From positions 186,001 to 250,000 of the forward strand of contig NZ_CP102275.1 in NCBI RefSeq assembly GCF_025149465.1: DNA of 64,000 nucleotides. Reading direction: 5' to 3'. A program made the position numbers and the translations under genes. This DNA is from Thomasclavelia spiroformis DSM 1552 (GTDB lineage Bacteria > Bacillota_I > Bacilli_A > Erysipelotrichales > Coprobacillaceae). This document shows positions 47,613 to 63,019 of the stretch, piece after piece (positions within the stretch are counted from its first letter, which is position 1; each line of letters opens with the position of its first letter). Below the pieces are notes generated by a model. It saw nothing but the letters and a program-made list of their open reading frames with translations. It had not been told where the DNA came from and searched no databases.

Positions 47613-47755
47613 TTTACATTTTAGTAAATATTTTTTATAATTTAGACAGTTAAATAAGTTGTTAAATAGTGTGTAACTAGTAATGTAGGCATTAACTATA
47701 CTCAACCTTAGAAAGTTTATGACTTTGTAGGATTAGTATTGTTAATGCCTTTTTT
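47613..47755 (+). promoter_or_regulatory. Promoter plus RNA antiterminator (RAT) and terminator ahead of GH3
   Basis: TTTACA (47613-47618), 17 bp, TATAAT (47636-47641). The transcript begins with GTGTGTAACTAGTAATGTAGG (within 47669-47696), which resembles the RAT of BglG/LicT-type antiterminators. Its 3' part overlaps a perfect 9-bp terminator stem, GGCATTAAC (47688-47696) with GTTAATGCC (47741-47749), followed by TTTTTT. RAT folding and terminator folding exclude each other. Confidence 0.8.
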
Positions 47756-47828
47756 AATAGAAATGCGCGCTTTCTATTAAACATTAGCTAGAAATTATTT
47801 GCAACTTAATCGTGAAAGGAGAGAAAGC

Positions 47829-50800
47829 ATGAAAAAAACATATAAGCGAGTGCTTGCAACTTCTATGTCAGCTGCACTTGCGATGACAAGTATGGTTCCA
47901 GCATTTGCTAAAACAACTGATGGTAGTATTTCAGCACGTGAAGAAAAAAATGCTGAACTTTCAATGAACCTTGCGACACAAGGAATGGTTTTATTAGAAA
48001 ATAACAACAATGTTCTTCCGATGGCATCAAGTGGAAATGTTGCATTGTTTGGTGGAGGTGCAGTAAAAACAGTAAAAGGTGGTACTGGATCAGGTGATGT
48101 TAATCAACGTAGTGTAACAAGTGTATGGGATGGATTTAAAAATGCCGGATATAATGTTACATCTGAAAATTAGTTAAATGAATTTGAAGCATATTATGAT
48201 GAAGAAACAGGTGGCTCATCTGGAGGTCTATTGGGATCACCAAAAGTAGAAGATACACTTATTAGTGATGCTCAAATTGAAGAAGCCAAACAAGATGGAA
48301 CAACTACTGCAGTTTATGTAATTGCGCGTAATTCGGGGGAATTTGCGGATCGATTAGATGCAGAAGGTGATTATCAATTATGGAGTAATGAAGAAGAAAA
48401 CTTGAAAAAAGTGGTAGCTAACTTCGATAATGTAATTGTTGTATTGAATGTTGGAGGAATTATTGATACTAAATTCTTCCATGAAATTGAAGGATTAGAT
48501 AGTTTATTACTTATGTCACAAGCTGGTATGCGCGGTGGTGACGCTGTTGTAAAAGTACTAAATGGTGAAGTTACACCATCAGGAAAACTTACAGATACAT
48601 GGGCAGTAAATTATGAAGATTATTCATCATCAGAAACTTTTGGTAAAAATGATGTAAATACTACACAAGAAGATTATACAGATGATATTTACGTAGGATA
48701 TCGTTATTTTGATACATTTAATGTAACACCTGCATATGAATTCGGTTATGGTTTATCATATACAGATTTTAATATTGATGTTAAAGATGTAACTGTAGAT
48801 GAAGAAAATGTAACAGTCGATGTTAAAGTAACAAATGTAGGAAAACAATATTCTGGAAAAGAAGTAGTAGAAGTATACTTCTCTGCACCGGATGGGGCTC
48901 TTGAAAAACCATATCAAGAATTAGCAACATATGGAAAAACAGATACATTGGCACCTGGTGAGTCACAAACATTGACATTATCATATGCAACTACTGAAAT
49001 GTCTGCTTATTCAGAAGATTTAGCAGCATATGTAATGGAAGATGGAGATTATTTAGTTAGAGTTGGAAATAGTTCAAGAAATACAAGTGTAGAAGCAGTA
49101 ATTAACTTAGATTCAAATAAAGTAACAGAACAATTAAGTAATCAAATGGTACAAGATGAAGAAATAGACACTTTATCAAATGAAGGTGCTACACCATATA
49201 CATATGAAGGAGAAGCTGAAGAAATTGCAAAAGCTGAAAGATTTGAACTTGATGCAAATGCAATTGAAACAGTAAATAATGCTTCAGAATATGATGATGA
49301 AAGTGTAATCTCATATGTTTATGAAGGCAGTGATTATACAGTAGTGGATCAAGAAGCTAATCCACGTTATACAAAAGCTCCAAGTGGAAACAATACAACT
49401 CCAAGTCAGTTGATTGAACCATATGAAGAAACTATTCAATATGTAGAAAAAACAAAAGAAAATCCAACATTATTAGATGTATATCAAGGAACTGTAACAA
49501 TGGAAGAATTGCTTGCAAGTCTTTCTGTTGAAGAAATGTCTAATATTGTTGAAGGACTTGGATGGGGTGGAGGTAGTGAACCAATTATCGGTGCCCAAGC
49601 AAATAGTGTAAAAGGTGCTGCAGGTGAAACTACATCTAAATATTATGAAACAAGAGCTATTCCAAATACAGTATTAGCAGATGGGCCAGCAGGAATTCGT
49701 ATTACTCAAAGTTATGAAGAAGATGGAACAACTTATTATCAATATTGTACAGCTTTCCCAATTGGAACATTAATTGCACAATCTTGGGATAAAGACGTTG
49801 CAAAACAATTTGGTGAAGCTATTGGAGAAGAAATGCTTGAAATGGGTGTAACTATGTGGTTAGCGCCAGGTATGAATATTCATAGAAATCCATTATGTGG
49901 ACGTAACTTCGAATATTATTCAGAAGATCCATTAGTAGCAGGAGTAACTGCAGCTTCAACAACATTAGGTGTTCAAAGTCATGAAGGTATTGGAGTTACA
50001 TTGAAACATTATGCAGCAAACAATCAAGAAGATAATCGTAATGCAGTTAATAACACAATTACAGAACGTGCTTTACGTGAAATTTATTTAAAAGGATTTG
50101 AAATTGCAGTAAAAACTGCTAACCCAATGGCGCTTATGACATGTTATAATTTAAATAATGCTATGCCAGGTGCTGATGACTATGATTTATGTACAGATAT
50201 TCCTAGAGGAGAATGGGGATTCAATGGATTGATTATGACAGACTGGGGTGGAGGACAATCAACACCAGTAAACTCTATGCATGCTGGAAATGACTTAATT
50301 ATGCCAGGTGGATCTTCAAAATCAATTGCAGAAGCAACTGGAGTAACACTTCCATTAGGAGATTTACAAAAAGCAACTCGTAATGTATTAAATGTAATTA
50401 TGGATTCAACACAATTTAAGAAAATTGGTGTTGAAAATGGTGTAGAAGTAGAAATTGGTAAATTTACTGAATCTGCAGGATTAGGATTATTCTTAGATGT
50501 AACAAAATCAGAAGTAACATCAGTAAATAAAACAGCATTGCAAATCGCAGTAGATGTAGCAAGCAATATAGCAGATGAAGAATTAGAAAACGTAGTACCA
50601 GCTGTAGCAAATGAACTTAAAGCAGCATTAGAAGAAGCAAAAGCAATCTTAGAAGATGCTACTGCAGAACAAGAAACAGTAGATGCATCATTTGATCGTT
50701 TAGCAACAGCTATCCAAATGCTAGATTTCATTAAAGGAGATAAAGCAGCATTACGTTCATTCATCACAAAAGTAGAAAATACAGTTGAAGAAGAATATAC

Positions 50801-51326
50801 ACCAGCTACATGGACAGCATTTGCAGCAGCATTAGGAACAGGAAATACAGTATTAGCAAATGAAAATGCAATGCAAGAAGAAGTAGATAATGCATATACT
50901 AATTTAGTAAAAGCATATTTGAACTTAAGATTAGTACCAAATAAAGATAAATTAGAAGATCTAATCAATCAAACAAAAGCATTAGTAGCAGCAAATTATA
51001 CAGCTGATACATGGAAAAATGTAAGTGATGCATTAGTATTAGCAGAAAATGTAATGAGCAATGAAAATGCAACAAGTGAAGAAGTTGCAAATGCCGAAAC
51101 TGTATTAACAAAAGCAGTAGAAGGATTAGTAGTAAATAATACGCCAGTAACTCCAAGTACACCAGCTGTAGACAATACAGTAGACAGTACAGTAAAAACA
51201 CCAGTAAACAGTGGAGATACAACAGCAAGTGTAAAAACAGGAGATGAAAGCTTAACAGGATTATTTGGAGGAATCACATTATTAAGCTTAGCTGGAGCAG
51301 TATTACTTAAAAGAAAAGAAAATTAG
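47829..51326 (+). pseudogene. GH3 glycoside hydrolase with in-frame TAG at codon 115
   Basis: The frame reads through as one 1165-codon gene except for TAG at 48171-48173. The signal peptide is MKKTYKRVLATSMSAALAMT... after AAAGGAGAG. The domain order is permuted: the GH3 C-domain comes first (VLLENNNNVLPM, then past the stop LNEFEAYYDEE), followed by a fibronectin-like domain and then the catalytic barrel with VLADGPAGIR, LKHYAANNQE and nucleophile Asp805 in MTDWGGG. Three FIVAR repeats, SVKTGD (1134) and the KRKEN tail finish it. Family members usually have Trp-Leu at this spot, so TGG to TAG is likely. The downstream part alone would lack a signal peptide. Activity is probably beta-glucosidase or beta-hexosaminidase. 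Confidence 0.85.
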
Positions 51327-51379
51327 TAAATAGATAACAGAAATGTTTTTCTCAAAAATATAGACAGATTTCCTTGTAA

Positions 51380-51419
51380 AAACTCATAGAAATGAAATTC
51401 ATTTGCTATGAGTTTTTTT
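51380..51419 (+). terminator. Terminator after GH3
   Basis: AAACTCATAG/CTATGAGTTT stem (51380-51389, 51406-51415) followed by a continuous T-run. Confidence 0.85.
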
Positions 51420-51534
51420 ATAAAAATAAAATTAATGAGATAGGTAAAATACGATTATAAATAAAGATTAATTATATGATAAATAATGTTATACTGTTAA
51501 AATAAAAGCTAATAAAAATGGATGTGATTAATAG

Positions 51535-52368
51535 ATGTATAAATATGAAAAAATTGTATATAATGACAATTTGCCTATAAAATTATATGATTTTTTTAAT
51601 GAAGAAAGTGAAGGAAATATAATTGAAAAACATTGGCATAGTAGTATTGAAATTTTAATACCTTTATATGGCAAATTTGAATTATGGGTGAATGGAATCA
51701 ATGTGGAGATAAGTGCTGGAAAAGTATACATTATTAACTCAAAAATTATTCATGCTATTAATGGAATAAAGGATGAAAAAATATATAAAGGGTATGCTTT
51801 ACAAATTAGTTATGATTATATGAAAGAATGTTGCCCACAAATAGATATATTTTCTTTTCAACAACCCGATGAAAAAGTTAATAAAGCATTAATGCGTACT
51901 TTAATAGAGATAATTAGATTTTATGAAAGTAAGGAAAAGTATAATGATATAAGAATGAAAAGTTATCTTCAAAAAGTTGTATTTATTTTATTAAGTAAAT
52001 TATCTAGAGAAAAAAGTGATTGCTTAAAATTGAAAGACAATAAGTGCAAAAATAAGATTGTAAAAATTACAAAATATATAGAAGATAATTATCAAAATGA
52101 GCTGACAGTACAACAAATTGCAGATACATTTAAAATATCATCAGGATATCTATCTAAATTATTTAAAGAAAATTTAAATTTAACAGTGAAAAAATATCTA
52201 TATCAAATAAGGTTGGAACATGCAGAAGAAGAATTGATTGAAACTGATTATTCAATTATTGATATTGCCTTTGAAAATGGCTTTCCAAATACTAAATCAT
52301 TTTGTCAAATATTTAAACGGAAAAATCATATGACTCCAGCAAAATTTAGAAATATGATGAGAAAATGA
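51535..52368 (+). CDS. AraC-family transcriptional regulator
   Basis: A 277-aa regulator with an N-terminal cupin (IEKHWHSSIEILIPLYGKFEL) and a C-terminal AraC domain: LTVQQIADTFKISSGYLSKLFKE, then SIIDIAFENGFPNTKSFCQIFKR and MTPAKFRNM. It lies directly upstream of, and in the same direction as, the esterase gene whose promoter has two direct repeats, making that gene the likely target. The ribosome site is weak. Confidence 0.92.
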   Translation: MYKYEKIVYNDNLPIKLYDFFNEESEGNIIEKHWHSSIEILIPLYGKFELWVNGINVEISAGKVYIINSKIIHAINGIKDEKIYKGYALQISYDYMKECCPQIDIFSFQQPDEKVNKALMRTLIEIIRFYESKEKYNDIRMKSYLQKVVFILLSKLSREKSDCLKLKDNKCKNKIVKITKYIEDNYQNELTVQQIADTFKISSGYLSKLFKENLNLTVKKYLYQIRLEHAEEELIETDYSIIDIAFENGFPNTKSFCQIFKRKNHMTPAKFRNMMRK

Positions 52369-52370
52369 CG

Positions 52371-52420
52371 CTATTTAGTAAAAAAATTGCCCTATTTAGT
52401 ATAGAAAATTTTTATATAAT
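52371..52420 (+). promoter_or_regulatory. Esterase promoter with two AraC-like direct repeats
   Basis: CTATTTAGTA occurs at 52371-52380 and 52392-52401, 21 bp apart (two helical turns). The second copy overlaps the -35 position for TATAAT at 52415-52420. This is the geometry of AraC-family activator sites. Confidence 0.7.
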
Positions 52421-52449
52421 ATATATATTAGAAAGAAAGGAGAATAAAG

Positions 52450-54564
52450 ATGCTAAAAAAATTAATGAGTTGCCTGATTTGTATGCTCATGGTCATTGGA
52501 ATATGTAAAACCCCTACAATGGCTATAAGTGAAGTTACAGCATCAGGAACACAAAAAGCGTATATTGTTGGTGATGACTGGGGACCAGCAGTAACAAAAA
52601 CAGTAATCGAATTAGATAAAGCGATTGACAGTAGCTCAGTCAGTAAAGAAAAATTCAATGTAGTAGAAGAAAAACAATCTTATACAAATCAACCAGTAGC
52701 TAGAACAGTGACAGATGCATATACATCTGATGCTAATGGTAATAAGGTTGAAAGCAGTTCAAACTATATTACAATTGAAATGTATGTTTCACCAAGTGAA
52801 GGATCACCATTCTTCTATGATTTCATGAGCGGAAGAAATGTATGGTGCGAAACATATAAATTAAATGTATCATTAGTAGATGGCATGACATTGACAGCTG
52901 GAGAAGAAACAGTTAATGCATTAGCAATTGAAGCAGACATCAATGTATCAGACCCAGCTGAAAGAATCTGTCCACAGTTAGATGGTTTTGATACAACAAA
53001 AACATATACTGCAACAGATGGAACAACATATTCATATGCAGAATACTTACCGGCAGAAGATAATCAGAAAAATGCATTAGTAATCTGGTTACATGGAGCA
53101 GGAGAAGGTGGAGTAGATCCAACAATCGATTTACTTGCAAATGAAGTAACAGCATTAGCAGGAGATGAATTCCAAGAATTATTTAAAGGAGCATATGTAT
53201 TAGCACCACAATCACCAACAATGTGGATGGATGATGGTACAGGGGCTTATCAAAATGGAGACAAGGGATCATGCTATGCAGAAAGCCTATTTGAATTGAT
53301 AGAAACATATGTAAAATCAAATGAAGATATCGATACAAATCGTATAATCATCGGAGGATGTTCAAACGGTGGATATATGACAATGGAAATGATTTTAAAA
53401 CATCCAGATTATTTTGCGGCAGCATATCCGATTTGTGAAGCATTCCAAGATCAATATATAAGCGATGAACAAATAGAATCAATCAAAGATATGCCAATCT
53501 GGTTTACATATGCAAAAACAGATAGAACAGTAAATCCAGAATTATGTACAGAAGCAACAGTAGCAAGATTAATAGAAGCAGGAGCAAAAAATATTCATGT
53601 ATCAGCATTTGAAGATGTACATGACACAACAGGAAGATTTACAAATGCAGATGGAACACCATATACATATGATGGACACTGGTCATGGGTATACTTTGAT
53701 AACAACGAATGCTATGATGAAAATGGAGTAAATGCATGGCAATGGCTTGCAAAACAAAATAAAGTGAGTGGAGAAGTTGTAGACAAAACAGCATTAAAAA
53801 TTGCAGTAGATCTAGCTAATGCAATTACTGATGAAGATTTAGCTAATGTTGTACAAGCAGTAGTTGATGAATTCAAAATGGCAAGAGATGAAGCTAATGC
53901 AGTATATAATAATGTTAGTGCTACTCAAGAAGAAGTAAATAATGCATTTGATAGGCTTGCTAACGCTATGCATATGTTAGACTTTAAACAAGGCGATAAA
54001 ACAGCATTAAAAGCATTTATCGATAAAGTTAGCGGATTAGAAGCTGCTAAATATACAGAAGCTACATGGACAGTATTTGAAACAGAATTAAATGAAGCAG
54101 TAGCAGTATATGAAGATTTAAATGCAATGCAAGAAGAAGTAAACAATGCATACAGTGAATTAGTAACAGCATTCTTGAACTTAAGATTAATTCCAGATAA
54201 GAGCTTATTAGAAGAATTAATCAATAAGGCAGAAGGATTAAACGGAGTAAACTATACAAAAGCATCATATGCTGCAGTAGAAAATGCTTTATTAACAGCA
54301 AAAGCAGTATATGAAAATCCAAATGCAACACAAGAAGTAGACAATGCAAAAGCAACATTAGAAAAAGCAATAGCCGGATTACAAGCAAATCCAAGTACAC
54401 CATCAAATGTAGACAATACAGTAAAAACACCAGTAAATAATGGTGATACTACAAGTGTAAAAACAGGTGATGATGTTAATATGTTAGGAACATTAGCAGG
54501 GCTTGCGTTATTAAGTATTGTAGGAGCTAAAGTTCTTAGAAAAAAAGAAGATTCATGTAATTAA
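52450..54564 (+). CDS. Cell-wall-anchored alpha/beta-hydrolase (esterase)
   Basis: A 704-aa exported hydrolase. After the signal peptide (cleavage near TMA) comes an Ig-like domain (residues about 30-165), then the hydrolase core with WLHGAGEGGVDP, nucleophile Ser305 in IIGGCSNGGYM, Asp region YAKTDRTVNP and His410 in YDGHWSWVYF. Three FIVAR repeats, SVKTGD and the RKKEDSCN tail follow. The core resembles secreted feruloyl/acetyl esterase and peptidase-like hydrolases. One FIVAR repeat lacks a codon found in its paralogues (ATQEVDN against ATQEEVDN), and the linker has DTTSVKTG instead of DTTVSVKTG. GAAAGGAG precedes the ATG. Confidence 0.85.
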   Translation: MLKKLMSCLICMLMVIGICKTPTMAISEVTASGTQKAYIVGDDWGPAVTKTVIELDKAIDSSSVSKEKFNVVEEKQSYTNQPVARTVTDAYTSDANGNKVESSSNYITIEMYVSPSEGSPFFYDFMSGRNVWCETYKLNVSLVDGMTLTAGEETVNALAIEADINVSDPAERICPQLDGFDTTKTYTATDGTTYSYAEYLPAEDNQKNALVIWLHGAGEGGVDPTIDLLANEVTALAGDEFQELFKGAYVLAPQSPTMWMDDGTGAYQNGDKGSCYAESLFELIETYVKSNEDIDTNRIIIGGCSNGGYMTMEMILKHPDYFAAAYPICEAFQDQYISDEQIESIKDMPIWFTYAKTDRTVNPELCTEATVARLIEAGAKNIHVSAFEDVHDTTGRFTNADGTPYTYDGHWSWVYFDNNECYDENGVNAWQWLAKQNKVSGEVVDKTALKIAVDLANAITDEDLANVVQAVVDEFKMARDEANAVYNNVSATQEEVNNAFDRLANAMHMLDFKQGDKTALKAFIDKVSGLEAAKYTEATWTVFETELNEAVAVYEDLNAMQEEVNNAYSELVTAFLNLRLIPDKSLLEELINKAEGLNGVNYTKASYAAVENALLTAKAVYENPNATQEVDNAKATLEKAIAGLQANPSTPSNVDNTVKTPVNNGDTTSVKTGDDVNMLGTLAGLALLSIVGAKVLRKKEDSCN

Positions 54565-54619
54565 CGTAAAGGATGCTTTTAATAATTAAGTGCTTTAGTG
54601 AAAATTGCTCTAAAATGTA

Positions 54620-54653
54620 AAGGGAATATTGATTATGATCAATATTCCTTTTT
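54620..54653 (+). terminator. Terminator of the esterase gene
   Basis: GGAATATTGAT/ATCAATATTCC perfect 11-bp stem (54623-54633, 54638-54648) with a 4-nt loop followed by T residues. Confidence 0.85.
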
Positions 54654-54729
54654 AAAATACCTATCGCTTTTAAAAGAGGGAGATGCGGATAATTTCTTGG
54701 GTCAGAAATAACGTATTGGAAGAAAATTT

Positions 54730-55242
54730 ATGTCATATACAAAATAAGAAAAACAACTAGCACTTTCAGTATATGATCAAACCGGTTCAATGGCTAAAGT
54801 AATCAATAAACTAAGGTATCCTACTAGATAAAATATGTATACATGGATTAAAAATAGAAATATCGAAATTAAGAAACTGAACCATGTTGATTATTGAGAT
54901 ACACCTGAGCACAGAAGACATCCATCACTAGAATTAAAATTATCAATCATTCGTCGTTGCTTTCAAGAAGGAGAAGAGATAAAATCAGTATCAGAGGAAA
55001 CTGGTTACTCAGGAGCGAGTATCTATCTTTGGAGAAGAAAATATGTTGTTGGAGGTGCATCTTCATTGGTCAGTAAAAAGAAACATTTACCTCGTGGTAA
55101 AATCATTACAGATACGTCCGGCCATGATTCTAGACAAGAAGAACTTGTATCAAAAATCAAAGAATTAGAAATGGAAAATGATATTCTTAAAGAGACAATT
55201 AAAATATTAAAAAAGATCAGGGCATCGATCAGTTTAATTTAA
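54730..55242 (+). pseudogene. IS3-family orfA remnant
   Basis: Reading from ATG 54730, three in-frame stops (TAA, TAA, TGA) interrupt a helix-turn-helix protein. The C-terminal part is clear: SIIRRCFQEGEEIKSVSEE, GASIYLWRRKY and the leucine-zipper segment ELEMENDILKETIKIL. It is not functional as read. Confidence 0.8.
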
Positions 55243-55259
55243 AAAACAAAGAAAAGACA

Positions 55260-56140
55260 ATGATCATCGATGCCCTAAGAGATAAATATTCATTGTCATT
55301 GCTTTTGAAAAGGATGGATATTTCAAAAAGTAGTTATTGCTATCAGCATAAGATTATCTATTCAAAAGGAAAATACGAAGTGACAACTAATGAAATTATG
55401 CATTTATTTCATAAAAATGATAGCAGATATGGCTATCGAAGGATCTATGCCTTGCTGAAAAAACAAAATATCATTATATCCGAAAAAATTGTTAGAAGGA
55501 TTATGAAAGAAAATCATTTGGTAGTTAAAATCAAAAAGACCAAGAAATACAGTTCCTATATAGGAGAAATTTCGAAAGCAGCTGAAAATCTTATTAACAG
55601 GAATTTCCATTCTGACAAACCTAATCAGAAAATGCTGACAGATATTACTGAATTTTCGATACCGGCTGGAAAGGTATATCTTTCACCAATCATAGATTGT
55701 TTTGATGGGATGGTGACTGCATGGAAAATCAGTACAAATCCAAATGCAGAACTCGTCAACAGTATGTTAGATGAATACCATAAAACACTGAAAAACGGAG
55801 AAAAGCCCATCATACACAGTGACCGTGGAGCGCATTATCGATGGCCAGAATGGATCAATAGAATGAATAGGTATGGATTTCAAAGAAGTATGTCCAGAAA
55901 AGGCTGTTCGCCAGATAACTCAGCATGCGAAGGGTTCTTTGGAAGAATGAAAAATGAAATGATATTAGTATAGAAGAATTTATATTTCTTATAAACGAGT
56001 ATATTGTATGGTACAATACTAAAAGAATAAAGAAATCGTTAAATTATCTAAGTCCGAAAGAGTACAGACAATTACTGGATCTTGAAATAAAAAGGTCCAA
56101 GAAATTGTCCGCACCTCCGCCTGTAAATTATTTTGTGTAA
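55260..56140 (+). pseudogene. IS3-family orfB transposase, frameshifted
   Basis: An intact N-terminal part of 237 codons has the HTH_21 region RYGYRRIYALLKKQN and DDE-domain pieces: Asp in MLTDITEF, Asp in IIHSDRGAHY and Glu in NSACEGFFGRMKNE. It then stops early at 55973. The expected C-terminus (SIEEFIFLINEYIVWYNTKRIKKSL...) continues in another frame to 56140. A short deletion around 55960-55970 explains both the missing residues and the shift. Confidence 0.82.
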
Positions 56141-56147
56141 AGTCTAT

Positions 56148-56445
56148 TTCCAATGATATATAACTTCCCAATTACCATATGGGACATTTTATTTACTTGT
56201 TATTTTATTCTAAGCTAAGTACAAAGATTTAAATAAATTTTTAAGTATTACATTCTCTGTTATGTGATGTTCTAATTACTTATTGTATTTAAATACTTCA
56301 CGATTTGCATTATTAACAGATTTCGATTATAAAATTCTGTTAAAAAATAACAAGTTTACATTTTTATAATATGAAGAATATATTAACTTTTTTAGTTAAA
56401 TAATAACATTATTTTATGATATAATAAAAAAATCAACATAATCAG
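56148..56445. other. Gene-free AT-rich spacer
   Basis: About 300 bp between the IS3 relic and the man promoter, very AT-rich. A TATAAT-like element occurs near 56420, but no coding frame or strong hairpin is seen. Confidence 0.5.
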
Positions 56446-56581
56446 TAGACATAATTGATATTAAATGGTATAATTATAAATGTAAAAAGTGTGTAACTGG
56501 TCAAGCAGGCATTAACTATACAAAATTATATATTGAGTCTAGTAGACTTTGTATATTTTTGAGTACAGTTAATGTCTTTTT
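56446..56581 (+). promoter_or_regulatory. Promoter plus RAT antiterminator/terminator ahead of the man PTS operon
   Basis: TAGACA (56446-56451), 17 bp, TATAAT (56469-56474). RAT-like GTGTGTAACTGGTCAAGCAGG begins at 56489 (element 56489-56516). It overlaps the left arm of a terminator, GGCATTAACT (56508-56517) with AGTTAATGTC (56567-56576), extended by TATACAAA/TTTGTATA, then TTTTT. The sequence is nearly identical to the element at 47669 ahead of GH3, with CTG/CAG replacing CTA/TAG in the RAT stem. Confidence 0.85.
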
Positions 56582-56667
56582 AATTGTTTGAGAGTTTTCT
56601 CAATAATATTAAGTTACATCGTTTTATGAAATTAATAAAAATTCATACTAAAAGGGAGGAGAAAAAG

Positions 56668-57654
56668 ATGGTAGGAATTATTCTTGCTAGTCATGGAGAA
56701 TTCGCAAACGGAATCCTACAATCCGGATCAATGATCTTTGGAGAACAGCAGGATGTAAAAGCTGTAACATTACAGCCTAGCGAAGGACCAGATGATTTAA
56801 AGGCAAAGATAGAAGAAGCAATTGCTACATTCGAAAATCAGGAACAGGTCTTGTTTTTAGTTGATTTATGGGGTGGTACACCTTTCAATCAATCTAATGG
56901 ACTAATCGACGGACATGAAGACACATGGGCAATCGTTACTGGTTTGAACTTGCCAATGCTGATTGAAGCTTATGCTTCTCGTCTATCAATGCAAACTGCA
57001 CATGAAATTGCAAAACATATCGTAGAAGTTGCAAGAGAAGGTGTAAAAGTAAAACCTGAAAAACTGGAACCGGTAAAAGCAGCTCCAGCAGCTACAAAAG
57101 CAGCAGTTCAAGGAGCAATTCCGGAAGGAACAGTGATCGGAGACGGAAAGATCAAATATGTACTTGCACGTATCGATACACGTTTGCTTCATGGACAGGT
57201 AGCTACAACATGGACAAAGACAACAAATCCAAATCGAATCATCGTAGTATCAGATTCAGTAGCACGAGATGATCTTCGTAAGAAAATGATCGAACAGGCA
57301 GCGCCACCAGGAGTAAAAGCTAATGTAGTACCAGTTGATAAAATGATCAAGGTAGCTAAGGATCCACGATTTGGAAATACAAAAGCGATGCTGCTGTTTG
57401 AAACACCACAGGATGCATTGAAAGCAATCGAAGGTGGAGTAGAGATCAAAGAACTAAACATCGGATCAATGGCGCATTCAATTGGAAAAGTGGTTGTAAA
57501 TAAAGCAATCGCAATGGATAAAGATGATGTAAAAACAATCGAGAAAATAAAATCGAAAGGAATCAAATTTGATATCCGCAAGGTACCAAGTGATTCAAAA
57601 GAAAATATCGATAATCTTCTTAAAAAGGCAAAAGCCGAATTAGGAAATGCTTAG
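56668..57654 (+). CDS. manX: PTS mannose-family EIIAB component
   Basis: A 328-aa two-domain protein. The EIIA domain (1-130) carries phospho-His9 in ILASHGEFANG and DLWGGTPFNQ. An Ala/Pro-rich linker (about 130-160) leads to the EIIB domain with His175 in ARIDTRLLHGQVATTW. It relays phosphate from HPr to sugar entering through EIIC/EIID. GGGAGGAG precedes ATG 56668; the longer frame from 56584 overlaps the terminator and is rejected. The family imports mannose, glucose, fructose, GlcNAc or glucosamine. Confidence 0.94.
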   Translation: MVGIILASHGEFANGILQSGSMIFGEQQDVKAVTLQPSEGPDDLKAKIEEAIATFENQEQVLFLVDLWGGTPFNQSNGLIDGHEDTWAIVTGLNLPMLIEAYASRLSMQTAHEIAKHIVEVAREGVKVKPEKLEPVKAAPAATKAAVQGAIPEGTVIGDGKIKYVLARIDTRLLHGQVATTWTKTTNPNRIIVVSDSVARDDLRKKMIEQAAPPGVKANVVPVDKMIKVAKDPRFGNTKAMLLFETPQDALKAIEGGVEIKELNIGSMAHSIGKVVVNKAIAMDKDDVKTIEKIKSKGIKFDIRKVPSDSKENIDNLLKKAKAELGNA

Positions 57655-57666
57655 GAGGAAATTATA

Positions 57667-58485
57667 ATGTCAATCATAACAGTAATATTAATTATTATAG
57701 TTGCCCTGCTAGCAGGTATGGAAGGGGTATTAGATGAATTCCAGTTCCATCAACCACTAGTGGCATGTACCTTAATAGGTATCGTAAGCGGACATGCAAC
57801 AGAAGGAATCATTCTAGGAGGTTCGCTACAGATGATTGCACTTGGATGGGCAAACGTAGGTGCTGCAATTGCACCTGATGCTGCACTTGCATCAGTAGCA
57901 TCAGCAATCATCATGGTGTTAGGATTAGAAGGAGGAAGCACTGATGTGCAAACTGCTATTTCAACATCAATTGCAGTAGCAATTCCACTTTCAGTAGCTG
58001 GATTATTCTTAACAATGATCTGCCGTACAATTGCAATTCCAATGGTACACTTCATGGATGCAGCAGCAGAAAAAGGAAACATGAGATCAATGGAAATGTG
58101 GCAAATCTTAGCGATCTTATTACAAGGTGTCAGAATCGCAATCCCAGCAGCTGCACTTTGCTTCGTACCAGCATCAGCAGTAACAGGGGCATTGAATCAA
58201 ATGCCATCATGGTTAGCAGACGGTATGACAATCGGTGGGGGAATGGTAGCAGCAGTAGGTTACGCAATGGTAATCAACATGATGTCAACAAAAGAAACAT
58301 GGCCATTCTTTGCACTAGGGTTCGTACTAGCAGCAATTGGAGAATTAACATTAATTGCACTAGGGGCAATTGGAATCGCATTAGCATTAATCTATTTAGG
58401 ATTAAAAGAAAATGGCGGATCTAATGGAGGAAACGGAGCCGGAGGTTCTGGAGACCCATTAGGAGATATCTTAAACGATTATTAA
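57667..58485 (+). CDS. manY: PTS mannose-family EIIC component
   Basis: A 272-aa membrane protein with repeated helices. It opens ITVILIIIVALLAGMEGVLDEFQFHQP and contains GIILGGSLQMIALGWANVGAAIAPD, both diagnostic of ManY. It forms the sugar channel with EIID. The tail is Gly/Asn-rich (KENGGSNGGNGAGG), longer than in many relatives. AGGAGG precedes the ATG, and the spacing to the neighbours is short. Confidence 0.95.
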   Translation: MSIITVILIIIVALLAGMEGVLDEFQFHQPLVACTLIGIVSGHATEGIILGGSLQMIALGWANVGAAIAPDAALASVASAIIMVLGLEGGSTDVQTAISTSIAVAIPLSVAGLFLTMICRTIAIPMVHFMDAAAEKGNMRSMEMWQILAILLQGVRIAIPAAALCFVPASAVTGALNQMPSWLADGMTIGGGMVAAVGYAMVINMMSTKETWPFFALGFVLAAIGELTLIALGAIGIALALIYLGLKENGGSNGGNGAGGSGDPLGDILNDY

Positions 58486-58507: not shown

Positions 58508-59425
58508 ATGGCAGAAAAATATAAGTTAACAAAAAAAGATCGTATGTCTGTTGCATGGCGTCATCAGTTCCTTCAAGGTTCATGGAACTATGAACGTATG
58601 CAAAACGGAGGATGGTGTTATTCAATAATACCAGCCATCAAAAGACTATATCCAAATAAAGAGGATCAAATAGAAGCATTAAAGAGACATATGGAATTCT
58701 ATAATACACATCCATATGTATCAGCACCAGTAATGGGTGTAACATTAGCGTTGGAAGAAGAAAGAGCAAATGGAGCAGAAATCAACGACCAGGCAATCCA
58801 AGGGGTTAAGGTCGGAATGATGGGGCCATTAGCCGGAGTAGGGGATCCAGTATTCTGGTTTACATTAAGACCGATATTAGGTGCCTTAGGAGCATCACTT
58901 GCATTAAGCGGAAATATCGTGGGGCCATTACTATTCTTCTTTGCATGGAACATAATCAGAATGGCATTCATCTGGTATACACAAGAATTCGGATACAAAG
59001 TAGGAACATCAATAGCGAAAGACTTATCAGGAGGGCTATTAGGAAAGATCACACAAGGGGCATCACTATTAGGGATGTTCATAATCGGATCACTGGTACA
59101 ACGCTGGGTAAGTATTTCATTTACACCAACAGTATCAGAAGTAACACAATCAGCAGGAGCATTCATTGACTGGTCAAATCTGCCATCAGGAGCAGAAGGG
59201 ATCAAGTCAGCATTGACAACATACAGTCAATTGGGAGCTTCAGCATTGGATGAAGTAAAAGTAACAACATTACAACAAAACTTGGATCAGTTAATTCCAG
59301 GGCTTGCAGCATTATTATTAACATTACTATGCTGCTGGCTATTAAAGAAAAAAGTGTCACCAATCATAATAATCATCGCATTATTCATAGTAGGTATTGG
59401 AGCACATTTAATAGGAATCATGTAA
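58508..59425 (+). CDS. manZ: PTS mannose-family EIID component
   Basis: A 305-aa membrane protein with LTKKDRMSVAWRHQFLQGSWNYERMQ at the N-terminus, then GVKVGMMGPLAGVGDPVFWFTLRPI, both ManZ signatures, and several C-terminal helices. It completes the EIIC/EIID channel. AAGGGAG precedes the ATG. A hairpin after the stop reduces transcription into manO. Confidence 0.95.
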   Translation: MAEKYKLTKKDRMSVAWRHQFLQGSWNYERMQNGGWCYSIIPAIKRLYPNKEDQIEALKRHMEFYNTHPYVSAPVMGVTLALEEERANGAEINDQAIQGVKVGMMGPLAGVGDPVFWFTLRPILGALGASLALSGNIVGPLLFFFAWNIIRMAFIWYTQEFGYKVGTSIAKDLSGGLLGKITQGASLLGMFIIGSLVQRWVSISFTPTVSEVTQSAGAFIDWSNLPSGAEGIKSALTTYSQLGASALDEVKVTTLQQNLDQLIPGLAALLLTLLCCWLLKKKVSPIIIIIALFIVGIGAHLIGIM

Positions 59426-59478: not shown

Positions 59479-59865
59479 ATGGTACAGTCAATGAATACAA
59501 AAGTAGACTATACAGTAGCGGCGACATCATATCTGGGGATGGCGAACTATGGGAAGGTGATGATAGGGGACAAGGCATTTGAATTCTATAATGAAAAGAA
59601 TCTCAAGGACTATATCCAGATACCATGGGAAGAGATAGACTATGTGATGGCATCAGTAAACTTTAAAGGGAAATGGATACCGCGCTTTGCGATAGTGACG
59701 AAGCAAAACGGAAGGTTTACATTTTCAACAAGAGACAACAAGGCGACATTGAGAGCAGTAAACAAATATATAGAATCGAACCGGCTGGTAAAGTCACTGA
59801 GTTTCTTTCAGGTAGTAGGCCGAGGACTGAAGAGACTGTTTAGAATCAAGACGAAGAAAAAATAA
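59479..59865 (+). CDS. manO: DUF956 family protein ManO
   Basis: A 128-aa protein with TSYLGMANYGKVMIGDKAFEF, IPWEEIDYVMASVNFKGKWIPRF and FSTRDNKATLRAV, matching the DUF956/ManO family that commonly follows Firmicute mannose PTS operons and is thought to modulate them. AGGAG precedes ATG 59479. Codon use is strikingly rich in C- and G-ending codons relative to the flanks. The longer frame from 59329 lies inside manZ and is rejected. Confidence 0.9.
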   Translation: MVQSMNTKVDYTVAATSYLGMANYGKVMIGDKAFEFYNEKNLKDYIQIPWEEIDYVMASVNFKGKWIPRFAIVTKQNGRFTFSTRDNKATLRAVNKYIESNRLVKSLSFFQVVGRGLKRLFRIKTKKK

Positions 59866-60049: not shown

Positions 60050-60095
60050 AATTATATTTAAATTTGGGATTTAATTTTATGATATGGAGGGAAAA

Positions 60096-62186
60096 ATGAA
60101 AAATAGAATATTAAGTACAATGCAGCGTATTGGCAAAAGCTTTATGTTACCTATTGCAATATTGCCAATTGCGGGATTGTTGCAAGGAATTGCAATGGCA
60201 TTGACTAATCAGTCAATGATTGAAGCATATCAGCTTGAATCAGTTTTGGGAGAGGGGACATTGATTTATTCTTTTATGCTTATTTTAAAAAATGTTGCAA
60301 GTGCAATATTTGATGATTTGCCATTAATTTTTGCTGCTGGTGTTTCTTTGGGAATGGCAAAAAAAGAAAAAGGAGTCGCAGTGTTATCAGCAGTCATTGC
60401 CTTTTTTGTTATGCATACAACAATAAATTCAATGTTGATGATTGATGGACAGTTATTATCTGATGGAACTGTATCTAGTGATGTTATTCAAGGTACAATA
60501 ACTTCAATGTGTGGTATTCAAACTTTAGAAATGGGCGCCTTTGGAGGAATTTTAGTAGGCTTAGGAGTCTCTTTTTTACATAATCGTTATTATAAAATTG
60601 AATTTCCTGATGTTTTTTCTTTTTTTGGAGGAACACGGTTTGTACCAATTATTTCTACATTAGTATTTATTATAGTTGGCATAATAATGTTCTATATTTG
60701 GCCAATTATCCAAAATAGTATATATTCATTAGGTCATTTTATTACGGGAACAGGATATATTGGCACATTTATCTTTGGAATTATTAAACGTTGTTTAGTT
60801 CCTTTTGGGCTTCATCATTTATTTTATTTACCATTTTGGCAAACTGCAGTTGGTGGTACTATGGTTGTGGATGGGACGATAGTACAAGGAGCACAAAATA
60901 TATTTTTTGCACAAATGACTGATCCTAATCTAGTCCATTATAGTGTTGAAGCAACAAGGTATTTTACTGGAGAATTTATTTTTATGATTTTCGGGTTACC
61001 AGGAGCAGCTTTGGCTATGTATCAATGTGCTGATTCTAAAAATAAAAAAGCATGCGGAGGTTTATTGTTATCAGCAGCCTTAACTAGTATGTTTACTGGT
61101 ATCACAGAACCAATTGAATTTTCTTTTATATTTGTTGCACCAATTTTATTTGGAGTTCAGGTTTTATTAGCAGGTAGTGCATATATGGTTGCACATATTT
61201 TAAATATTACAGTTGGGTTAACATTTTCTGGTGGTTTAATTGACTTTATTATGTTTGGTGTTCTACAAGGACAAAGTAAGACTAATTGGATGATGATCAT
61301 CCCTGTAGGTATTGTTTATTTTTTATTGTATTATATAATATTCAAGTATTTAATTATAAAATATAATCTTAAAACGCTTGGACGAGACGGTTATCAAGAG
61401 ATTACAGTTTTTAAAAATTCAGAAAAGTCTAAAGATGAAAATAATACAGTTGATTTACAATCAGTTTATGTAATCAAAGGATTAGGAGGACGTAGTAATT
61501 TTAAAGAACTTGATTGTTGTGTAACGAGATTACGTGCAACAATTTTAGATATGAATAAGATTGATGAGGGGTTATTGAAACAATCTGGTGCTGCTGGTGT
61601 TGTTTGTAGTGGGGAAGTTATTCAAGTTATATATGGACCACGTGCTTCGATTATTAAGGCTAAATTAGAGGAATATTTAGAAAATAATCGAGATGATGAT
61701 ATTGAAAGTAGTATAGTTGATAATAATATTTATGAACTTAATAGTATTGTTAATGGCGTGGTTAAAGAATTAAGTGATTCCAAAGATGAGATGGTGGCTA
61801 AAAAGTTATTGGGTGATGGACTAATAATATTACCAGAGGATAATATTATTAGATCTCCATGTAAGGGTAAAATAACAATGATTTTTCCAACTAAACATGC
61901 TATTGGGATTACACTTGAAAATAACTTAGAATTATTGATTCATTTTGGTATTAATACAGTTGCTTTAAATGGAAAAGGATTTGAACTTTTTGTTGAAAAT
62001 AATCAGGATGTTATGCCTGGAGATATATTATGGAAAGTTGATCTTGACTATATTAAAGCTAATGCTGTAAGTGAAGAAATTATGATTATTGTTATAAATG
62101 CATCAAAAGATACGGAATTTGTGAAATTATATGGGTATAAAGAGCAAGGTGAATTAATTGGATTTATTAAAAAGGAGGAACGTTGA
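60096..62186 (+). CDS. PTS glucose-family EIICBA transporter
   Basis: A 696-aa protein in C-B-A order. EIIC (residues about 1-415) begins SFMLPIAILPIAGLLQGIAMAL and has FGLHHLFYLPFWQTAVGG and TSMFTGITEPIEFSFIF. EIIB carries Cys475 in LDCCVTRLRAT. EIIA carries His616 in ELLIHFGINTVALNGKG. The C-B-A order fits PtsG/NagE/MalX-type rather than beta-glucoside (B-C-A) transporters. Substrate could be glucose, GlcNAc or an alpha-glucoside; nearby GlcNAc-releasing enzymes make GlcNAc attractive but unproven. GGAGGG precedes ATG 60096. Confidence 0.9.
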   Translation: MKNRILSTMQRIGKSFMLPIAILPIAGLLQGIAMALTNQSMIEAYQLESVLGEGTLIYSFMLILKNVASAIFDDLPLIFAAGVSLGMAKKEKGVAVLSAVIAFFVMHTTINSMLMIDGQLLSDGTVSSDVIQGTITSMCGIQTLEMGAFGGILVGLGVSFLHNRYYKIEFPDVFSFFGGTRFVPIISTLVFIIVGIIMFYIWPIIQNSIYSLGHFITGTGYIGTFIFGIIKRCLVPFGLHHLFYLPFWQTAVGGTMVVDGTIVQGAQNIFFAQMTDPNLVHYSVEATRYFTGEFIFMIFGLPGAALAMYQCADSKNKKACGGLLLSAALTSMFTGITEPIEFSFIFVAPILFGVQVLLAGSAYMVAHILNITVGLTFSGGLIDFIMFGVLQGQSKTNWMMIIPVGIVYFLLYYIIFKYLIIKYNLKTLGRDGYQEITVFKNSEKSKDENNTVDLQSVYVIKGLGGRSNFKELDCCVTRLRATILDMNKIDEGLLKQSGAAGVVCSGEVIQVIYGPRASIIKAKLEEYLENNRDDDIESSIVDNNIYELNSIVNGVVKELSDSKDEMVAKKLLGDGLIILPEDNIIRSPCKGKITMIFPTKHAIGITLENNLELLIHFGINTVALNGKGFELFVENNQDVMPGDILWKVDLDYIKANAVSEEIMIIVINASKDTEFVKLYGYKEQGELIGFIKKEER

Positions 62187-62188
62187 CA

Positions 62189-63019
62189 ATGTATGAGATT
62201 GTAAAAGTATTGAATAACAACACGCTTTTAGCTTTAAAAGATAATCAGGAAGTTATTTTTTTAGGTAAAGGAATAGGATTTAAAAAGAAGGTTGGAGAGT
62301 TATTTCAACCAGATGAGCAATGTCAAGAATATGCATTGGTAGAAAAAGGAAATGGAAAAAGAAATATAGAAAAAGATATCGTTAGTATTAATCCTATCTT
62401 TATCGAAATAGCGTCAGAAATTATTCGTTTAGCTAAAATACAATTTGATCATGTTGACGAAAAAATATTATTACCATTGGTTGATCATATCGAATTTGCA
62501 ATTTCAAGGTTAGAAAATAAAATGGAAATAAATAATCCTTTTACTAAAGATATAGAATTACTTTTCCCAGAAGAATATAAGATAGCTTTAAAAGGGCGAG
62601 AAATCATTGAAAAATATACTCAGTATAAAATTCCTGATAATGAGGTTGGATACATTACATTACATGTTCATTCAGCAATAAGTACAAGTAAAACAACTGA
62701 ATCAATTCAAGTAATGGAAGTTATTCGTGAAAATATTGATCAGTTAAGAAAAGATTTAAGAATTACTATTGATGAAAATTCAATTTCTTATACACGTTTA
62801 ATGAATCATCTCAAATATTTATTATTAAGATTAGATACTAAAGAAAAATTACAAATGGATATTAGTGATTTTACAAAAACTAAATTTCCGTTTGCATATG
62901 AACAAGCAACAAATATGTGCCAACAGCTATCAAAAGTATTAGATAAAGAAATTCCAGAAACAGAGATAGGTTATTTAGCTTTACATTTGGAACGTATTTT
63001 ATCATTGGAATTAAAATAA
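62189..63019 (+). CDS. BglG/LicT-family transcription antiterminator
   Basis: About 276 aa. The CAT RNA-binding domain (1-55) starts MYEIVKVLNNNTLLALKDNQE and includes FLGKGIGFKKKVGE, a classic LicT/GlcT signature. Two PRD domains follow, with conserved His in FDHVDEKI, LVDHIEFAI, LHVHSAIS and ALHLERIL, where PTS phosphorylation controls dimerisation. It binds RAT hairpins and prevents terminator formation. The start ATG 62189 follows AAAGGAGGA; the TTG at 62183 is the alternative. It overlaps or abuts the EIICBA gene, its likely negative regulator. The RAT elements at 47669 and 56489 are candidate targets. Confidence 0.92.
   Translation: MYEIVKVLNNNTLLALKDNQEVIFLGKGIGFKKKVGELFQPDEQCQEYALVEKGNGKRNIEKDIVSINPIFIEIASEIIRLAKIQFDHVDEKILLPLVDHIEFAISRLENKMEINNPFTKDIELLFPEEYKIALKGREIIEKYTQYKIPDNEVGYITLHVHSAISTSKTTESIQVMEVIRENIDQLRKDLRITIDENSISYTRLMNHLKYLLLRLDTKEKLQMDISDFTKTKFPFAYEQATNMCQQLSKVLDKEIPETEIGYLALHLERILSLELK

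Follow-up and report, generated by a model that had tools for sequence, protein, structure and literature searches.

Can one antiterminator protein of the BglG family control both a secreted glycosidase gene and a sugar-uptake operon that lie 9 kb apart? The question is raised by a 64,000-nucleotide (nt) stretch of the Thomasclavelia spiroformis DSM 1552 genome (contig NZ_CP102275.1, positions 186,001 to 250,000), which we call the window and by whose numbering all positions are given unless stated otherwise. It contains two short elements, E1 in the leader of a glycoside hydrolase family 3 (GH3) gene, and E2 in the leader of an operon encoding a mannose-family phosphotransferase system (PTS), the man operon. 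A sequence-only reading had taken both for ribonucleic antiterminator (RAT) sites overlapping terminators, and had assigned them to one BglG-type protein. We find that E1 and E2 are RAT-type antiterminator sites of a single class within RAT/terminator leaders, that this regulatory feature is real and conserved, and that the earlier reading is correct in outline. We put the probability that they are the RATs of the GlcT-like antiterminator encoded at 62183-63019, and that this protein controls read-through into both the GH3 gene and the man operon, at about 0.83. RAT antitermination is a known kind of control, here in a new arrangement. The leaders are made up as follows:

47613 to 47641, plus strand: predicted sigma-A promoter of E1, TTTACA-17-TATAAT, matching the consensus at 11 of 12 positions, with the -10 box ending 24 nt before the RAT.
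47666 to 47699, plus strand: class-1 RAT E1, supported by covariance models R1/R2 and by pair counts.
47687 to 47755, plus strand: intrinsic terminator of the E1 leader (-26.2 kcal/mol; leader z -4.24), overlapping the RAT 3' half; AGGCATTAAC...GTTAATGCCT and a T-tract.
56446 to 56474, plus strand: predicted sigma-A promoter of E2, TAGACA-17-TATAAT with TG before the -10 box, 11 of 12 matches, with the -10 box ending 11 nt before the RAT.
56486 to 56519, plus strand: class-1 RAT E2, supported by covariance models R1/R2.
56507 to 56582, plus strand: intrinsic terminator of the E2 leader (-26.1 kcal/mol), overlapping the RAT 3' half; AGGCATTAAC...GTTAATGTCT and a T-tract.

Both elements are present where they had been read, and each does overlap a strong terminator. 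The 5' arm of each terminator is the 3' half of the RAT itself (AGGCAUUAAC), so that the RAT fold and the terminator fold are mutually exclusive. Both promoter-like sequences, predicted by consensus scoring, have 17-nt spacers. The 26-base pattern that unites E1 and E2 occurs twice in the window (0.00 expected by chance) and, with up to three mismatches, only twice in the whole 2.53 Mb genome, with no match for a reversed-pattern control. Each element has the features by which RATs are recognized, i.e., an imperfect hairpin with two internal loops and an ACU(G/A)...(C/U)AGGC core, and they share with the RATs of LicT, SacY, SacT and BglG the core ACUG...CAGGC motif, the internal loops and the overlap with a terminator. 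Those RATs differ in standing classically before their own PTS or hydrolase operons, and the LicT-type sequence UGUUACUG...CAGGCAAAACC differs from the UGUAACU...CAGGCAUUAACU seen here. An Rfam search with E1 and E2 returned zero family matches, which places them outside every known RNA family model. The lone RAT hairpins are no more stable than shuffled sequence, as expected if a protein is needed to hold the RAT, and we therefore left stability out of the evidence.

The top of the hairpin reads CUA/UAG in E1 and CUG/CAG in E2, with pairing retained. This covarying pair, pointed out in the sequence-only reading, is real; E1 and E2 alone are two sequences with a single changed pair, and it became strong evidence only when the RATs of relatives were added. 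Across 34 distinct RATs of both classes described below, the third upper-stem pair is G-C in 24, A-U in 6, C-G in 3 and mispaired in none, the one gapped row being a shortened Faecalibacillus form. For the whole structure, 92.3% of cells are paired, against 87.9 +/- 0.6% after shuffling (reached by 0 of 500 shuffles) and at most 45% when the structure is slid along the alignment. The statistic is weak when restricted to the class-1 RATs of the genus, where 32 of 500 shuffles reach it, because these sequences barely vary. These compensatory changes bear on whether the hairpins could be ordinary terminators that share a relict or mobile repeat with no regulatory role. Strong terminators in both leaders and a transposase-like open reading frame (ORF) close by, at 55260-55973, would fit that explanation, but the RAT alone is common to the two leaders, the flanks and terminator loops differ, RAT pairing is maintained, and the RAT keeps its place between a promoter and sugar genes across several families; we consider that explanation highly improbable. 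The shortened RAT top (ACUUUAAGUAGG), found before the man operon in Faecalibacillus and relatives (loci L111-L113, L124, L129 and L150), is the sole class-1 form that does not keep the third pair in obvious form.

Which protein could act on these sites? The sequence-only reading had proposed a covariance-model search of the genome, and our model, made from four RATs with E1 and E2 among them, returns exactly five sites (E 5e-7, vs 0.2 for the next match). E1 and E2 form class 1, with the consensus GUGUGUAACUR...YAGGCAUUAACUAU, and the other three form class 2, with the consensus UGUUACUR-UUAAAU-YAGGCAU[UG]A. One class-2 site precedes a stand-alone enzyme IIA (EIIA) gene, divergent from an N-acetylglucosamine (GlcNAc)-type PTS and a LicT-like protein, and the other two precede genes for secreted GH3 proteins that bear a NagZ-type KHFPGHG motif. 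Of the 19 matches to a loose whole-genome pattern, only the five are leaders; the others that we inspected are intragenic and have no overlapping terminator. The two class-2 GH3 leaders carry identical 34-nt RATs in differing flanks, and the class-2 set (loci L005:4465-7476, L029 and L030), with its EIIA and two NagZ-type GH3 genes, looks like a NagY-type GlcNAc regulon. The genome encodes only two proteins with an RNA-binding CAT domain: the window protein (A) and LicT-B (B), which is NagE-linked and adjoins the GlcNAc-type PTS at genome position 416642. The earlier assignment to one BglG-type protein had left this second protein unconsidered, and LicT-B, as the only other CAT protein, with an own RAT that shares the core UGUUACUA...UAGGCAUUAGC, might control E1 and E2 alone or jointly with the window protein.

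The distribution of both proteins and both classes in the genus argues against this. A class-1 RAT precedes the man operon in 9 of 9 genus genomes, and in 7 of 8 relatives, those whose contig reaches far enough upstream, an A-type glcT gene lies directly before this RAT and operon; the eighth (G006) is represented by a 3.15 kb contig on which the RAT is preceded by the final part of a glcT-like gene. Where the wider region was read, the order is ptsG, glcT, RAT, man operon. Each of the 29 RATs in the nine genomes overlaps a terminator, and almost every one has a promoter matching 10-11 of 12 consensus positions. In a tree of CAT proteins, the man-linked proteins and the window protein form one clade with 100/100 support, and the B proteins fall in another. 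In one relative, G008, the only CAT protein belongs to clade A and the only RAT to class 1. LicT-B homologues accompany class 2 in all six genomes that have it, and G006 and G008 have neither; G002 carries a divergent B protein and no class-2 RAT, so the match between B and class 2 is imperfect. Given the class-1 RAT of G008, and with class-1 RATs elsewhere adjoining window-type proteins, we regard control by LicT-B as unlikely. The position of class-1 RATs between glcT and the man PTS, or elsewhere before ptsG-glcT, together with the pairing in G008, makes the window protein the likely regulator.

The same association extends beyond the genus. Of 43 family genomes, 18 contain RATs recognized by the covariance model, and not one RAT occurs in the 12 that lack a match to the window protein. 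An exact class-1 pattern scanned against 84,980 species gave 41 stretches; the pattern was derived from the window and the genus, so the independent test lies in the gene context and not in this count. In Coprobacillaceae and relatives, class-1 RATs stand before a man operon or a secreted glycosidase gene, and the glcT-RAT-man operon arrangement recurs in other genera. In Lachnospiraceae, Eubacteriaceae and Clostridium, a class-1 RAT stands directly before a ptsG homologue, i.e., the classical GlcT position, and many of these ptsG genes are followed, where the contig reaches, by an A homologue. All 29 of 29 elements outside the genus overlap a terminator. The CAT proteins beside class-1 RATs elsewhere all match A better than B, mostly with about twice the score (e.g., 214 vs 99 bits), and those adjoining such RATs form a clade with 100/100 support. 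These findings from outside the genus are our best evidence for assigning class 1 to the A lineage. By tying class 1 to the lineage of the 62183-63019 protein, comparative genomics makes it very probable that one BglG-family protein controls both leaders, and this part of the sequence-only reading stands. A mixed arrangement is seen in Butyrivibrio sp. MC2013 (L149), where a class-1-like RAT immediately precedes an antiterminator gene, and genes for EIIA and a NagE-type EII come next.

The genes downstream of the two leaders, and the proposed regulator with its neighbour, are:

47829 to 51326, plus strand: secreted GH3 protein; Pfam permuted GH3_C, Fn3-like and GH3_N domains, FIVAR, and a C-terminal anchor-like end.
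56668 to 57654, plus strand: mannose-family PTS EIIAB (PF03610, PF03830).
57667 to 58485, plus strand: mannose-family PTS EIIC (NCBIfam NF011647, above cut-off).
58508 to 59425, plus strand: mannose-family PTS EIID (TIGR00828, above cut-off).
59479 to 59865, plus strand: DUF956 protein, last of the man operon (PF06115).
60084 to 62186, plus strand: glucose-type PTS EIICBA, ptsG-like by Pfam, with no RAT upstream; probable sensor and phosphorylator of the antiterminator.
62183 to 63019, plus strand: GlcT-like BglG-family antiterminator, the proposed regulator (CAT PF03123; PRD1 and PRD2, PF00874).

The antiterminator has PF03123 and two PF00874 stretches above cut-off, and its PRD histidines 100, 159, 207 and 266 are invariant in the alignment with relatives. 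Its closest solved structure is 3rio, an antiterminator of the PtsGHI operon, and its best NCBIfam model is GlcT, at 227.9 bits; since this is below the equivalog cut-off of 320, we call it GlcT-like. The EIICBA likewise has glucose-specific IIBC as its best model at 501 bits, below the equivalog cut-off of 592. We looked for a RAT before this ptsG-like gene and found none, nor any before its homologue in the relatives examined, so the adjacent PTS gene, which had been read as the regulator's own target, drops out, which leaves E1 and E2 as the only targets visible for the protein in this genome. The order here is RAT, man operon, terminator-like hairpin, ptsG, glcT. The nearest relative of the window ptsG and glcT is a second paralogue found in G003 and in Longibaculum muris, where a class-1 RAT and a gene for a GH63/YgjK-like glycosidase stand before it; in L. 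muris the ptsG is 71% identical to that of the window, and glcT is 5 kb from the RAT. From these relationships, the man-linked ptsG-glcT copy seems to have been lost here, and the second paralogue seems now to serve both leaders. In G003 the region (L094, G003:C1:1904000-1916500, reverse strand) holds the class-1 RAT, the secreted glycosidase, a ptsG homologue with many stops and an intact glcT paralogue.

In the GlcT/LicT cycle of Bacillus subtilis, an idle permease phosphorylates the PRDs, which switches the antiterminator off, and during transport the RAT is bound and no terminator forms. From the BglG, LicT, GlcT and NagY mechanism we infer RAT binding, control by phosphorylation and the inducing sugar for the present system. 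Transcription would begin just upstream of the RAT and, by default, end at the terminator whose 5' arm is also part of the RAT. The idle glucose-type permease (60084-62186) would phosphorylate the PRD histidines and keep the antiterminator off; when it transports sugar, phosphate would be drained and the PRDs would lose their inhibitory phosphate. The CAT domain of the antiterminator dimer could then bind and hold the RAT hairpin, the terminator would be blocked, and RNA polymerase would read through into the GH3 gene and the man operon. We weakly favour glucose or a close relative as the probable inducer, rather than a mucin amino sugar, because the linked EII is glucose-type, and weakly since that EII falls below its equivalog cut-off. 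Mucin sugars, which the sequence-only reading had suggested for this circuit, are thus not indicated.

Four observations weigh against control of both leaders by the window protein. In contrast to most known GlcT/LicT systems, the operon that encodes it lacks a RAT; a good homologue is encoded in three family genomes (G012, G018 and G034) that have no RAT at the threshold used; and the core UGUNACU...AGGCAU is common to both RAT classes, which leaves room for cross-talk with the second antiterminator. The fourth is that the GH3 gene, one of the two targets, is interrupted in this genome, where an in-frame TAG stands at 48171-48173 (codon 115), with the remaining frame open to 51326. Four relatives have intact GH3 genes with no stop at that place. 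The E1 leader may thus be decaying, with a RAT that works, a GH3 gene that has lost its function in this species and the man PTS as the circuit's sole output. We hold this tentatively, at somewhat less than even odds: the stop lies in an otherwise full-length gene that four relatives keep intact, but a single lesion could be a recent event or a sequencing error, and the E1 leader is wholly intact. Such decay is compatible with regulation by the window protein and would limit its output only. The label of wall hydrolase, earlier given to the GH3 protein, we dropped on domains and motif, as the NagZ-type motif is absent and the protein is a secreted, FIVAR-bearing permuted GH3 of beta-glucosidase type, i.e., a secreted glycosidase. 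In G007 and G005 (L060 and L061), all that stands between a class-1 RAT with its terminator and an AraC gene is a C-terminal remnant of a surface protein, and this leader seems to have lost its gene.

Among known systems, GlcT/ptsGHI of B. subtilis resembles the present one in its CAT-PRD1-PRD2 antiterminator adjoining a glucose-type EII, in a RAT overlapping a terminator, and in providing both the closest structure and the best model for the window protein. It differs in the score (228 vs the 320 cut-off) and in RAT placement, which here is before a mannose-family PTS and a secreted glycosidase, with none before the adjacent ptsG-like gene. In Enterococcus faecalis, NagY controls, by way of RAT/terminator leaders, the PTS gene nagE and the distant hylA, which encodes a wall-anchored, FIVAR-bearing polysaccharide-degrading enzyme, and RNA immunoprecipitation sequencing of NagY also lists mannose-family PTS targets (PMC9981650, PMC12502629). 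This sets a direct precedent for joint control of a PTS and a distantly encoded wall-anchored enzyme by one BglG/SacY-family protein. NagY, however, is GlcNAc-linked and autoregulated via a RAT before nagY, and the class-2 circuit of this genome (NagE-type PTS, stand-alone EIIA, two NagZ-type GH3 genes) is closer to it than the class-1 circuit. The present system departs from NagY in the GlcT-like lineage of its protein, in having no RAT ahead of that protein's own PTS, and in the RAT conserved in front of the man operon. Our search of the open-access literature found no relevant paper on Thomasclavelia PTS or antiterminators.

More broadly, it is about an even chance that, in the gut genus Thomasclavelia and genera close to it, a GlcT-type antiterminator has lost the link to its own ptsG operon and been redeployed as a glucose-sensing switch for a mannose-family PTS and secreted glycosidases, beside a second, GlcNAc-type circuit with its own RAT class. 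Mannose-family PTS operons account for much of the sugar uptake in gut Firmicutes, and a conserved man-operon leader keyed to a GlcT-like protein offers a testable account of how uptake could be coupled to sugar release by surface enzymes. RAT sites would move between operons with the protein-RNA pair unchanged, and two parallel antiterminator-RAT pairs kept separate in one genome would form a natural test bed for RAT specificity. The transposase-like ORF near E2, of IS3 type by eye, lies between an esterase gene and E2, and may be connected with the local rearrangement of the man cluster.

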